NCBI RefSeq assembly: GCF_014138265.1
Contig: NZ_JACGXL010000001.1
Span: 186,001-250,000, forward strand
Length of the DNA: 64,000 nt
From: Dokdonella fugitiva
GTDB taxonomy: Bacteria; Pseudomonadota; Gammaproteobacteria; Xanthomonadales; Rhodanobacteraceae
Direction: 5' to 3'
Part shown: piece after piece, positions 32,429 to 36,046 of the stretch
Position numbering within the stretch: position 1 is the first letter of the stretch
Layout: each line of letters begins with the position of its first letter
The notes under the pieces: model-generated
Told to the model about the DNA's origin: nothing
What the model saw: only the letters and a program-made list of their open reading frames with translations
Database searches by the model: none
Position numbers and translations under genes: made by a program

Positions 32429-32776
32429 TCAGAGGTGCAGCAGGCCGAAGAATGCGACGATCGCCACGAGCACGCCCGGTACCCAGGCGAGTGCGAGCAA
32501 CGCACCCTTGCCGAAGCGCCGGTGACCGCTCCTGTACGCGACCGCGCTCGCCAACGCGAGCACGGCGACGGGCGTCGGCAGCACGATCGCCAGCAGCGTG
32601 TAGAACACGTGGTTGTCCGCACTCATGTGCGTCTGCATGATCGCGCTCATGAGCATGCCGAGCACGATCCAGCCGCCGAAGAGGATCGCCAGGCCGCAGC
32701 CGACGCCGGCACCGACCCGGCTCGTGTCGGGTGAGGGCGTCGAAGGAGCCGATGCATCGGGAATGGTCGTCGTCAT
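32429..32776 (-). CDS. Small three-helix membrane protein (paralogue 2)
   Basis: 115 aa: a Pro/Ser-rich N-terminus (about 20 aa), then three membrane segments (VGCGLAILFGGWIVLGMLMSAIM; FYTLLAIVLPTPVAVLALASA; ALLALAWVPGVLVAIVAFFGLL). AGGAGG lies just upstream of the ATG. Its layout and its ending AFFGLL resemble the neighbour at 32818-33159, so the two look like tandem paralogues. Function unknown; position suggests a role with the radical SAM/Lgt-like genes. Confidence 0.8.
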   Translation of the reverse strand: MTTTIPDASAPSTPSPDTSRVGAGVGCGLAILFGGWIVLGMLMSAIMQTHMSADNHVFYTLLAIVLPTPVAVLALASAVAYRSGHRRFGKGALLALAWVPGVLVAIVAFFGLLHL

Positions 32777-32817
32777 GGAACCTCCTGTTCCTGATGCAGT
32801 ACGCAGGATCGGCCGCG

Positions 32818-33159
32818 TCAGTGCCAACCGCCCGACGAGAGCAGCCCGAAACATGCCGCGACCAGCAGCAGCGCGACGGCGACGATCGTGCCGATGCCGA
32901 GCAGCACGCCGAGCGCGCTGCGCGGTCGGCCGTTCGCCGCGAACCAGACCATGAGGCCTATCATCCCCAGCCACGGCAGTGCGAGCAGCAGCGTGCCCGT
33001 GCCGGAATCGATGCCGTCGAAGGCGCTGAACGCACCGACGACGATCGCGTAACCGAAGATCAGTAGCGCCCAGGCGCAGGCGACGCCCGCCAGCAATGAT
33101 CCACGCCCGGCGCGGACGTCGGCCGGTCGGTCCGGTATCCGCGGTGACGGATCGCTCAT
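32818..33159 (-). CDS. Small three-helix membrane protein (paralogue 1)
   Basis: 113 aa: a charged Pro-rich N-terminus, then GVACAWALLIFGYAIVVGAFSAF, GTLLLALPWLGMIGLMVWFAAN and VLLGIGTIVAVALLLVAACFGLL as three membrane helices. GGAGGAA sits before the ATG. Same topology and similar last helix as the next gene. It begins 16 nt after the radical SAM gene stop and is probably in the same operon. Confidence 0.8.
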   Translation of the reverse strand: MSDPSPRIPDRPADVRAGRGSLLAGVACAWALLIFGYAIVVGAFSAFDGIDSGTGTLLLALPWLGMIGLMVWFAANGRPRSALGVLLGIGTIVAVALLLVAACFGLLSSGGWH

Positions 33160-33175
33160 CGCGTTCCTCCTTCGC

Positions 33176-34594
33176 TCAGGGGTAGGTACCGCGTGCGCGT
33201 GCGCGCAGTCGCTCGAGCTGCTGCACGCGATCGTCGCGGTAGAACAGGTTGAACGTGTCGAACGGGATGAGCCGGCCGTCGGGTTGCGCGATGTGCACGC
33301 ACGACTTCTTCACCGCGCGCAGGTCGAACGAATGCGCGTCGATGAACTGCATGATCAGCACGCGGAACACGTTGCGGTAGTTCCACTCCTGCGGCGCCTG
33401 CACCTGAGGCAGGCAGCACAGCAGGTCCGACAGCGAACACGCCTGCGATTCGGGCGAGTGGTTCGTCGCGAACAGCTCGAACACGTGCGCGCGCAGCGCC
33501 TCGTCGCGTTCGACCACGATCGTGTTGCGCCCCTTCGCGACGAGCGTCTCGGGTGACACGAAACGCGTGAGCGGCACGGTCGCGTCGCCGAGCTTGAGCG
33601 CGTACGCCATCGCGAGGCAGTCGGGATTGCACGGTACCGGGATGAGGTCGTCCGGCTCGAACACGCGCGTCTGCTCGAGGATGCACCGGCGCACTTCGGT
33701 GAGCGTGAGGCGATCGCGCGCGGGGTCGTAGTTCTCGAGTCGCCCGGCCGCCTGGATCGGTTGGAAGGTCACGCCGCGCACGCACGGCTGTCCCAGCGCG
33801 AACTCGACGATCGCGCCGAGTTCGTGGTCGTTGAGGCCCTTCTTCACGGTCACGACGAGCGTGGTCGAGATGTCGTGGTCGTTGAGTCGTTCGAGCGCGC
33901 GGCGGCGCACGTCGGCGAGCTTGGCGCCGCGCAGTTCCTGGTGCACCTCGTCGCGCAGCGAGTCGAACTGCAGGTAGAGCTCGAAGCCGGGCTCGTACTG
34001 CTTGAGGCGCGCGGCGAAATCGGCGTCGCGCGCGATGCGCAGGCCGTTGGTGTTGACCATCAGGTGGCGGATCGGGCGCCGGCGCGCGGCGTCGAGGATC
34101 GCGAAGAAATCCGGGTGCAGGGTCGGCTCGCCGCCGGAAATCTGCACGACGTCCGGCTCGCCCTCGTTCGCGACGACCGCGTCGAGCATGCGCTCGACCG
34201 TCGCGAGGTCGCGGTAGCCCGGTCGATGCGGTCCGGAGTCGGCGTAGCAGATCGGGCAGCGCAGGTTGCAGTGGTCGGTGATCTCGACCAGCGACAGGCA
34301 ACTGTGCTGCATGTGCTCGGGGCAGAGCCCGCAGTCGTACGGGCAGCCCCAGTGCTGGGCGGTGTTGAAGCGGCGCGGCATCTCCGGTGCCTTGATGAAC
34401 ACCTCGCGCGCCTTGCGGTAGTACGCCGCGTCGTCGGCGATGAGCACGCGTTCGCGGCCGTGCTCCGGGCACCACTTCTCGAGGAAGACCTGCTCGTCCT
34501 TGATCAGCACCTTCGCTTCGATGCGCGCGAGGCAAGTCGAGCAGATCGACACCGCGCTGTCGTAGAACAGGTACGGTCTCAGCTTCGCGCCCAC
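33176..34594 (-). CDS. Radical SAM protein resembling archaeal tetraether synthase (Tes/MJ0619 type)
   Basis: 472 aa from GTG 34592-34594, which overlaps the Lgt-like gene by 16 nt (AAGGGG upstream). An N-terminal ribbon (C18-x2-C21, C42) is followed by CPYDCGLC (C84, C88, C91) and the radical SAM cluster CNLRCPIC (C109, C113, C116), then QISGGEPTLHP (GGEP 154-157). The C-terminus has MQFIDAHSFDLRAVKKSCVHI and DGRLIPFDTFNLFYR, which I recognise from the tetraether synthase group that joins lipid chains through C-C bonds. Bacterial members are poorly characterised. Domain and family are clear; substrate is inference. Confidence 0.88.
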   Translation of the reverse strand: MGAKLRPYLFYDSAVSICSTCLARIEAKVLIKDEQVFLEKWCPEHGRERVLIADDAAYYRKAREVFIKAPEMPRRFNTAQHWGCPYDCGLCPEHMQHSCLSLVEITDHCNLRCPICYADSGPHRPGYRDLATVERMLDAVVANEGEPDVVQISGGEPTLHPDFFAILDAARRRPIRHLMVNTNGLRIARDADFAARLKQYEPGFELYLQFDSLRDEVHQELRGAKLADVRRRALERLNDHDISTTLVVTVKKGLNDHELGAIVEFALGQPCVRGVTFQPIQAAGRLENYDPARDRLTLTEVRRCILEQTRVFEPDDLIPVPCNPDCLAMAYALKLGDATVPLTRFVSPETLVAKGRNTIVVERDEALRAHVFELFATNHSPESQACSLSDLLCCLPQVQAPQEWNYRNVFRVLIMQFIDAHSFDLRAVKKSCVHIAQPDGRLIPFDTFNLFYRDDRVQQLERLRARARGTYP

Positions 34595-35310
34595 AGGCCC
34601 CTTCCCAGTCGCGGCAGGTCGCGACAGTAGTAGCACAGGCCGGCGACGCAGAGCAGCTGGATGCCCGACAACCCGCCCGGATACGCGTACGGCACCGGCT
34701 TGATCGCGTCGACGAACAGGCGGAACGCGAGGTAGGCGACCATGAACGCGCGGAAGCGGTCGCCCGCGCGCACGAAGGCGTTGCGCCGCGCGTGCAGCAC
34801 GAGGCCGAGGGCGAGCAGGAACGCGAGCTCGTAGAGCTGGGTCGGATGACGCGGAATGCCGTCGCCGAAGTCGACCGCCCACGGCAGCGTGCTCGGGTTG
34901 CCGTAGGTATGGTCAGCGAGGCCGGACAGGTAGCAGCCGATGCGGCCGATCGCGATGCCGACGAGCAACGGCAGTGCGAATGCGTCGCCGCTCGAGCCCT
35001 GTGCGCCGACGATGCGCTTGACGAGTTCGACGCCGACGAGTCCTCCGAGCAGCGCGCCGACGATGGTCTTGCCTTCGAGCAGGCGGCGCGCGTCGGGGAA
35101 GCCCGCGAACGCGGCGAGCGGGTCCTCGATCCAGTAGCCGAGCTTGGCGCCGATCGCCGCGCCGGCGATCGCCGCAAACGCGATCCAGACGCTGCGGTCG
35201 GTGTCGGCGAGCACGGGCAGCGCGAGTCGTCGGCGCTCGCGCACGAACAGGCGGAAGCCGACGAAGTAGGCGGACGCTTCGACGACCGTGTGCAGGCCGG
35301 CCGCTTCCAT
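34579..35310 (-). CDS. Lgt-like (prolipoprotein diacylglyceryl transferase family) membrane protein
   Basis: 243 aa from ATG 35308-35310. About seven hydrophobic segments. Lgt-family landmarks: GRIGCYLSG (R123, matching the essential Arg of GRLGNFING) and [14 protein letters not shown] [10 protein letters not shown] (H155). However, the usual HGGL(I/M)G motif reads ALLGGLVG (about 86-93), so the conserved His of bona fide Lgt is absent. It therefore may not attach diacylglycerol to lipoproteins and may act on another lipid acceptor. An upstream GTG at 35358 would overlap the oxygenase gene by 38 nt; the ATG 10 nt after that gene's stop fits the family start better. Confidence 0.8.
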
Positions 35311-35320
35311 GCGCGGCGCG

Positions 35321-36046
35321 TCAGTCGCGATGCGCGGCGTTGCGGTCGCGGCCAGCACCGAGGCGCCGGTCGATGCCGCCGAACAGCTTCTTGAACAGGC
35401 GCGACAGCTTGCCGCGCTGCGTCTTGCGCAGCTTTTCTTCTTCGCTCGTGAGCCAAGCGACCTGGATCACGCGACGCTCGCCCTCGTGCGGCAGGTGGCC
35501 GTGGAAGGAATTGTCGGCACGACGGAACGCGACGAGGTGGCCGTACAGCGGGCGCACCTCGGGTACGACGAGGTCGTCGATGTCGTCGATGCGGTTGAGG
35601 AAGCGGAAGCAGCCCTCGCTGATGTCCGGCCAGCTTTCGTTCAGGTAGACGAGGGCGGTCACGACCTTCGAGCGGCTGTCGGTATGGATCGTGCCGTGGC
35701 GCTTGTTCAGCGAGCGGCAGATCGTCACGAGGTGCGGCTTGTCGCCGAGGTCGGGGATGCCGAGGCGCGCGCCGATCGCATTCGCGAACGCGGGCGCGGT
35801 GAGGTCGTCGACCAGGCGGTTCACGCTCGGCCCGCAATCGCGGGCTTCGTGCGGGAAGAATCCTGCGTTCGGATAGCGCGGGAAGTCGCGCGCGAGTTCC
35901 GCCGCCGCCGCTGCCGGCAGCTGTCCACGCGCGATCAGGAACGGGAACGGCTGGTCGCGGACGAGGGTGTCGGCGTGGTCGAGGCGCCGCGGCTCGAGCA
36001 GGCTGTCGGCCGCGGGGTCGTTCAGGGTTTCGGCGGCTGCGTTCAT
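35321..36046 (-). CDS. 2-oxoglutarate/Fe(II)-dependent oxygenase
   Basis: 241 aa. The HxD iron motif is H121-T-D123 (GTIHTDS); the distal His is in NSFHGHLPH (H182 or H184), followed by ERRVIQVAW with the 2-oxoglutarate-binding Arg. The fold resembles proline-hydroxylase-like 2OG oxygenases. The C-terminal 40 residues are very basic ([17 protein letters not shown]), perhaps membrane-associating. First gene of the minus-strand run; divergent from carA across 204 bp. Substrate unknown. Confidence 0.85.

Follow-up and report, generated by a model that had tools for sequence, protein, structure and literature searches.

A candidate three-gene protein-lipidation cassette in Dokdonella fugitiva: an Lgt paralog, a tetraether synthase-like radical SAM enzyme and a cysteine-tailed small membrane protein

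The stretch of the Dokdonella fugitiva genome analyzed here (64,000 nucleotides (nt), hereafter the window, whose coordinates are used throughout) carries three adjoining minus-strand genes that form a conserved unit. They encode a paralog of the lipoprotein diacylglyceryl transferase Lgt, termed LgtL; a radical S-adenosylmethionine (SAM) enzyme related to the tetraether synthase Tes; and a small membrane protein bearing a conserved cysteine close to its C-terminus. Judging from sequence comparison, we estimate a probability of roughly one half that these genes constitute a protein-lipidation cassette, in which LgtL would attach a lipid to the C-terminal cysteine and lipid tails would be remodeled by the radical SAM enzyme. 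The cassette recurs across phyla.

Three genes form the conserved unit

An original prediction for this locus described five packed minus-strand genes as one lipid-modification operon, and all five open reading frames (ORFs), with the gaps and overlap it reported, are indeed present. They encode a 2-oxoglutarate (2OG)-Fe(II) oxygenase (35321..36046; Pfam PF13640, 2.3e-7); LgtL (34579..35310; 243 amino acids (aa) from an ATG start), a multi-span membrane enzyme matching PF01790 LGT at 1e-22; the radical SAM enzyme (33176..34594; 472 aa; PF04055 at 1.4e-26 and PF23545 at 1.2e-16); small membrane protein 1 (32818..33159; 113 aa), the prototype of what we call type A and the proposed lipidation substrate; and its paralog, small membrane protein 2 (32429..32776; 115 aa). 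Ten nucleotides separate the stop of the 2OG gene from the Lgt-like gene, which overlaps the radical SAM gene by 16 nt; a 16-nt gap precedes small protein 1, and a 41-nt gap lies between the two small proteins. The identification of an Lgt paralog beside a Tes-like enzyme stands, while the functional unit of five genes does not: the conserved core comprises only LgtL, the radical SAM enzyme and small protein 1.

Relatives were collected with one query protein and one genome per species, and the best 80 of 140 were retained, so that these 80 loci lean toward close relatives. They come from Dyella, Rhodanobacter, Oleiagrimonas, Lysobacter, Bacilli, Cyanobacteria, Methylococcus and Acidobacteria, together with single metagenome-assembled genomes from other phyla, all at 55-90% identity. 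An Lgt-like gene lies on the enzyme's strand in 75 of the 80. It is no more than 100 nt away in 69 and, judged from estimated gene starts, overlaps the enzyme gene in 52, which makes the adjacency more than chance. Of the remaining five loci, one carries the Lgt-like gene on the other strand, and L057, L077, L090 and L091 lack it within the locus but have one, scoring 151-310 bits, elsewhere in the genome. The conserved-operon search proposed with the original prediction recovers the Lgt-like/radical SAM pair and leaves the 2OG gene outside.

The pairing extends to whole genomes. Across 200 genomes of the order, enzymes were sorted into clades 1-3, our own names, assigned by score bands and neighborhood and not from a tree. 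Clade-1 enzymes (at least 660 bits) and Lgt-like matches of at least 150 bits share one set of 10 genomes; clade-2 enzymes (185-213 bits) and Lgt-like matches of 102-122 bits likewise share a set of six. Three genomes carry both clades, for a total of 13. All 16 Lgt-paralog matches thus fall in genomes with the matching enzyme, and every other Lgt match scores below 73 bits.

LgtL keeps the donor site and lacks the acceptor motif

LgtL has the fold of canonical Lgt (TIGR00544, PDB 5azb) and preserves the equivalents of its R143, E202, Y235 and R239. In an alignment of 75 copies (the window, 73 of the 80 loci and L006), the donor-lipid residues are retained throughout, with R143 and R239 corresponding to R139 and R213 in the 259-aa reading of LgtL (75/75). 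The acceptor side differs: H103 of the HGGL acceptor motif is replaced by Val, Ile or Leu and N146 by Cys, each in all 75, and the position of Y26 is His in 71. Seven loci are missing from this alignment, four having no neighboring Lgt-like gene (L057, L077, L090, L091) and three lying at contig ends (L032, L047, L086). At 29.6 bits, LgtL falls below the curated TIGR00544 cut-off of 118.9, and a canonical Lgt is present elsewhere in the window's genome.

The radical SAM enzyme resembles tetraether synthase

Tes joins phospholipid tails, and its crystal pocket held Escherichia coli phospholipids, as described in PMC9433317. The window enzyme comprises an N-terminal rubredoxin-type site, an N-terminal auxiliary cluster motif, a radical SAM core and a C-terminal cluster region, and Pfam describes it as a radical SAM protein with an HMPTM zinc-ribbon domain. 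The motifs on which the original prediction based its assignment to the Tes group are in place: CPYDCGLC (residues 84-91), CNLRCPIC (109-116), GGEP (154-157) and CVHI...DGRLIPF (432-445). The assignment itself is borne out in part. Fold and metal-ligand motifs are common to the window enzyme and Tes (also GDGT-MAS; MJ0619, PDB 7tom/7tol, NF045702), but the score of 276.8 bits lies below the curated NF045702 cut-off of 450. The best-scoring named model, that for the radical SAM (seleno)protein TrsS (NF045646), gives 336.8 bits against a cut-off of 490.

Residue comparisons were drawn over 82 enzymes (the 80 loci, the window and L006; clade-2 rows L008 and L011 are shown apart and uncounted). 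The labile Met439 of Tes aligns with M415 of the window enzyme, a position occupied by Met in 76 and Val in 6; Tes Tyr459, conserved in archaeal homologs, is Ile435 in the window and Ile in 77 of the 82. The Tes residue opposite R411 is a Met, and an invariant C393-C394 pair falls outside the aligned stretches. Unlike Tes, the window enzyme is tied to an Lgt paralog and a small membrane protein. That tie is absent from clade 3 (257-343 bits; 8 of the 200 genomes), TrsS-like by neighborhood and not scored on NF045646, which has the Lgt paralog in none of its eight genomes. At three loci of this TrsS-like clade (L140, L141, L143) a methyltransferase-like gene, Pfam-checked for L141, adjoins the enzyme and carries a CCS-FYE-WV motif near its start.

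A small membrane protein with a conserved cysteine

In 66 of the 80 loci the gene immediately behind that for the enzyme encodes a type-A homolog of 84-137 aa, and at L063 one is placed before the Lgt-like gene. A Pfam scan assigned no family to either small protein of the window. Similarly, a library scan of 38 type-A members found no family matching more than 3 of the 38 at E values up to 1; the best single values, each from one member, were 4.4e-4 (Pfam) and 0.0025 (NCBIfam). Three alignments, A1, A2 and A3, were built from 38, 38 and 31 chosen representatives. Although mean column identity in the 38-row type-A alignment is just 22%, 36 of the 38 rows retain the lipobox-like Cys103 (codon 32851..32853, minus strand; context LLVAACFG), and none of the other 89 scored columns is as informative, the start methionine included. 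Two rows depart from it: L066, whose cysteine comes five residues later, and small protein 2 of the window, in which the residue is replaced (VAFFG). Small protein 2 has an AGGAGG-like site upstream and is matched by the A1 profile at E 2.8e-11 (G000:C1:218432-218740), its sequence being itself an A1 row.

In the 66 proteins behind the enzyme, the cysteine sits inside the last hydrophobic segment, a median of 20 residues past the last Lys or Arg (16-24) and 10 residues (7-31) from the C-terminus. It is flanked by Ala at -1 in 59, Phe at +1 in 56 and Gly at +2 in 60; the VAAC of the window copy fits the lipobox [LVI][ASTVI][GAS]C. From the positive-inside rule, the cysteine is predicted to lie close to the membrane's outer surface. 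As a control, a similar motif was run on the 4,227 ORFs of at most 150 aa in the same loci. It returned 43 ORFs from 41 loci, every one sharing the strand of the enzyme and having its start in the interval from 121 nt ahead of the enzyme stop to 377 nt past it; as the motif was drawn from the type-A proteins themselves, this demonstrates place specificity, not independent discovery. Whole-genome searches of 25 cassette carriers gave a single strong type-A match in 24, by position always the cassette copy, and none in the Methylococcus genome; one of the 25 has an additional weak match (E 2e-4).

Clade 2, a distant enzyme clade, provides a better independent case for helix-cysteine tails than the loci picked by eye that are considered below. 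In all six of its cassettes (L147, L148, L149, L150, L203, L205), a protein of 50-82 aa directly follows the Lgt-like gene; it has a single hydrophobic segment, and its cysteine stands 3-6 residues short of the C-terminus. L149 has two such proteins. The clade-2 cassettes L147, L148, L149 and L150 also have a further multi-span protein of 113-146 aa before the Lgt-like gene, without Pfam match in the two scanned (L147, L148). Other arrangements exist in the 200-genome set: G051 and G067 encode a protein ending LFGGCT(L/I)GFQ before the Lgt-like gene, and G071 and G084 a protein of 92-94 aa behind the enzyme, its cysteine near the end of the first helix.

Comparison with known lipid-anchored proteins

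Whereas a bacterial lipoprotein carries its lipobox cysteine in an N-terminal signal peptide, type A has its cysteine near the C-terminus. In this respect it recalls the MYXO-CTERM proteins of the myxosortase system, in which an invariant cysteine adjoins a C-terminal helix and is, in the account of PMC11980579, thought to be lipidated by a possibly Lgt-like enzyme, proposed and still unknown. The arrangement is nonetheless different: according to the same source, the MYXO-CTERM cysteine precedes the helix, an Arg-rich tail lies inside and a protease cuts, whereas type A has its Lys/Arg residues before the helix and its cysteine near the far end. No protease gene common to the cassettes was seen in their neighborhoods. 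The NCBIfam family NF058595, 'lipo-invert putative C-terminal anchoring domain', has a name that suggests a lipid anchor inverted to the C-terminus, but its matches to the cassette small proteins do not rise above noise. It hits 3 of the 38 at E values no higher than 1 (best 0.39), leaves the window protein unmatched and exceeds its 37-bit cut-off in 0 of 249 genomes; L085, the sole match among 16 type-A and 4 other proteins at E 10, reaches 10 bits. A literature search found no paper using 'lipo-invert'.

Proposed mechanism and alternatives

How might the three proteins work together? The small protein would insert with its last helix running outward, its positive charges staying inside and its cysteine approaching the outer surface. 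This is the layout of a lipoprotein signal peptide at the opposite end of the protein, the cysteine being some 10 residues short of the C-terminus. The Lgt paralog may then move diacylglyceryl from phosphatidylglycerol onto that cysteine, the candidate acceptor. Finally, the Tes-like enzyme, through 5'-deoxyadenosyl radicals, could form a bond at an inert lipid-tail end, by C-C coupling as in tetraether synthase; its putative substrate is a tail of the protein's lipid anchor or of its phospholipid donor. This order of steps is our proposal. The sequences themselves establish the conserved unit, the homologies and metal-ligand motifs, the kept donor site and lost acceptor motif of LgtL, and the conserved cysteine; the topology, the role of the cysteine as acceptor and the lipid-tail substrate are, like the step order, inferred from them. 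A bolder version envisages a second kind of bacterial lipoprotein, in which a dedicated Lgt paralog lipidates an outward cysteine of the C-terminal helix and a Tes-like enzyme then joins the end of that tail to another tail, yielding a cross-linked, possibly membrane-spanning anchor. We regard that version as less likely than not, and rate a membrane-spanning product below the scheme of two enzymes acting on one substrate.

Several findings weigh against the lipidation scheme. Fourteen of the 80 loci have no type-A protein behind the enzyme. At nine loci without type A, different membrane proteins whose cysteine lies near a helix end were chosen by eye (Methylococcus L074 and L080; Acidobacteria L035, L070, L075, L086 and L088; L050; L033), and these adjoin the Lgt-like or enzyme gene, two in tandem at L050; inspection of L028, L057, L062 and L077 showed no such protein. 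Of the 10 clade-1 genomes, the A1 profile (E 1e-3) finds type A in six, beside the enzyme in five of them; it also finds type A in two genomes lacking the enzyme, G029 and, weakly, G119 (E 8e-4); in G029, a single case, neither enzyme was found and the homolog has no cysteine. In G039, again a single case, the type-A homolog retains AACFG and lies elsewhere, with no small membrane protein seen alongside the cassette. A strict lipobox fits just 20 of the 66 proteins, and Asn occupies -3 in 32. On the enzyme side, Ile435 replaces a tyrosine of Tes, though Y459 is not essential there, and both aligned clade-2 enzymes are without the C393-C394 pair, R411 and M415. Clade 3 outscores clade 2 on the clade-1 profile yet has no Lgt paralog, so enzyme similarity alone does not set the pairing, and the genome G059, in which a fragment of a clade-1 enzyme lies at the end of a contig, has no Lgt-like match. 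The small protein could be a partner and not a substrate.

If it is a scaffold or regulator, the diacylglyceryl group that LgtL takes from phosphatidylglycerol might go to a small or lipid acceptor, with tails coupled by the radical SAM enzyme into a special free membrane lipid. Tetraether synthase does yield free lipids, the acceptor motif of LgtL is replaced, and each of four clade-2 cassettes examined for neighbors (L147, L148, L149, L150) lies near a fatty-acid-hydroxylase-family gene (PF04116); we nevertheless consider this unlikely, as it leaves unexplained both why a helix-end cysteine is the small protein's best conserved residue and why the unlike small proteins of clade 2 share helix-cysteine endings. 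Alternatively, the radical SAM enzyme might modify the small protein itself, for example by a cysteine thioether, with LgtL anchoring or presenting it. Many radical SAM enzymes act on peptides, the window enzyme has weak similarity to SkfB and other maturases, and a dedicated small protein beside the enzyme is typical of such systems; even so, we think this rather improbable.

Homology to Tes also raises the prospect of a bacterial synthase of tetraethers or branched glycerol dialkyl glycerol tetraethers (GDGTs) acting on bulk phospholipids, with the Lgt paralog and small protein incidental, and Zeng et al. proposed branched-GDGT synthesis for bacterial homologs (PMC8941075). Both the sub-threshold Tes score and the steady pairing with the Lgt paralog make us doubt it at least as much as peptide modification. 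The enzyme occurs, moreover, in Nostocales and Methylococcus, groups that are not known to make branched fatty acids. Least credible of all is a five-gene operon in which the 2OG hydroxylase, LgtL, the radical SAM enzyme and both small proteins act jointly. The genes share one strand and are tightly packed, but their distribution already contradicts it: the 2OG gene is found in 37 of 37 searched genomes of the family, with or without the cassette, and in 0 of 24 from other families of the order, making it a family core gene and not a cassette part. Only 13 of the 90 loci fetched yield a match to it, and small protein 2 lacks the cysteine.

Implications

Bacterial Tes homologs have been reported and are suspected, without proof in the accounts given by PMC8941075 and PMC11868695, of branched-GDGT synthesis; those surveys count them as possible makers of lipids that serve as climate proxies. 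The present work defines a widespread group of such relatives tied to an Lgt paralog and a cysteine-tailed small membrane protein, and cautions that not every Tes homolog is a lipid-biomarker gene. What is new is the small cysteine-tailed protein, linked to the enzyme and the Lgt paralog, which points to C-terminal protein lipidation and supplies a concrete, testable candidate substrate; a literature search found no paper on this cassette. If a tiny membrane protein does receive a lipid at its tail, and that lipid is subsequently altered, this would be a new route to a lipid-anchored protein. Should the anchor be cross-linked, many 'bacterial Tes homologs' would be protein-anchor enzymes and not makers of free branched GDGTs.

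Neighboring genes and cassette loss in relatives

The surrounding genes include what we take to be a ThiF/TcdA-like gene (29216-30010), a secreted serine protease-like gene (30782-32383) and carA-carB (36224-41071). Within the window's genus, the radical SAM gene is found in 1 of 16 genomes, and the 2OG gene is kept in all 15 others. The nearest genus relative, G015, retains carA, the 2OG gene, the protease and a tatD-like gene (names by reading), but is without about 2.37 kb corresponding to 32902..35270 on the minus strand: homology ends inside lgtL (~35270) and restarts inside small protein 1 (~32902). Small protein 2 is gone as well. At this deletion scar (L197, G015:C5:170000-182000, ~4985-5127), what remains next to the 2OG gene is the tail of small protein 1 with AACFG. 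The 2OG gene is followed by the protease in G010 and G006, and the cassette genes are unmatched there.

Two further observations concern small and multi-span proteins elsewhere. Far from the G039 cassette, at L139 (G039:C1:2596000-2604500, 3539-4352), lies an orphan tandem of small proteins, one with AACFG and one without the cysteine. In the acidobacterial loci L035, L070, L075 and L088, a multi-span protein of 274-433 aa stands between the Lgt-like gene and the enzyme; its first helix also ends in a cysteine, and the L035 copy has no Pfam family.

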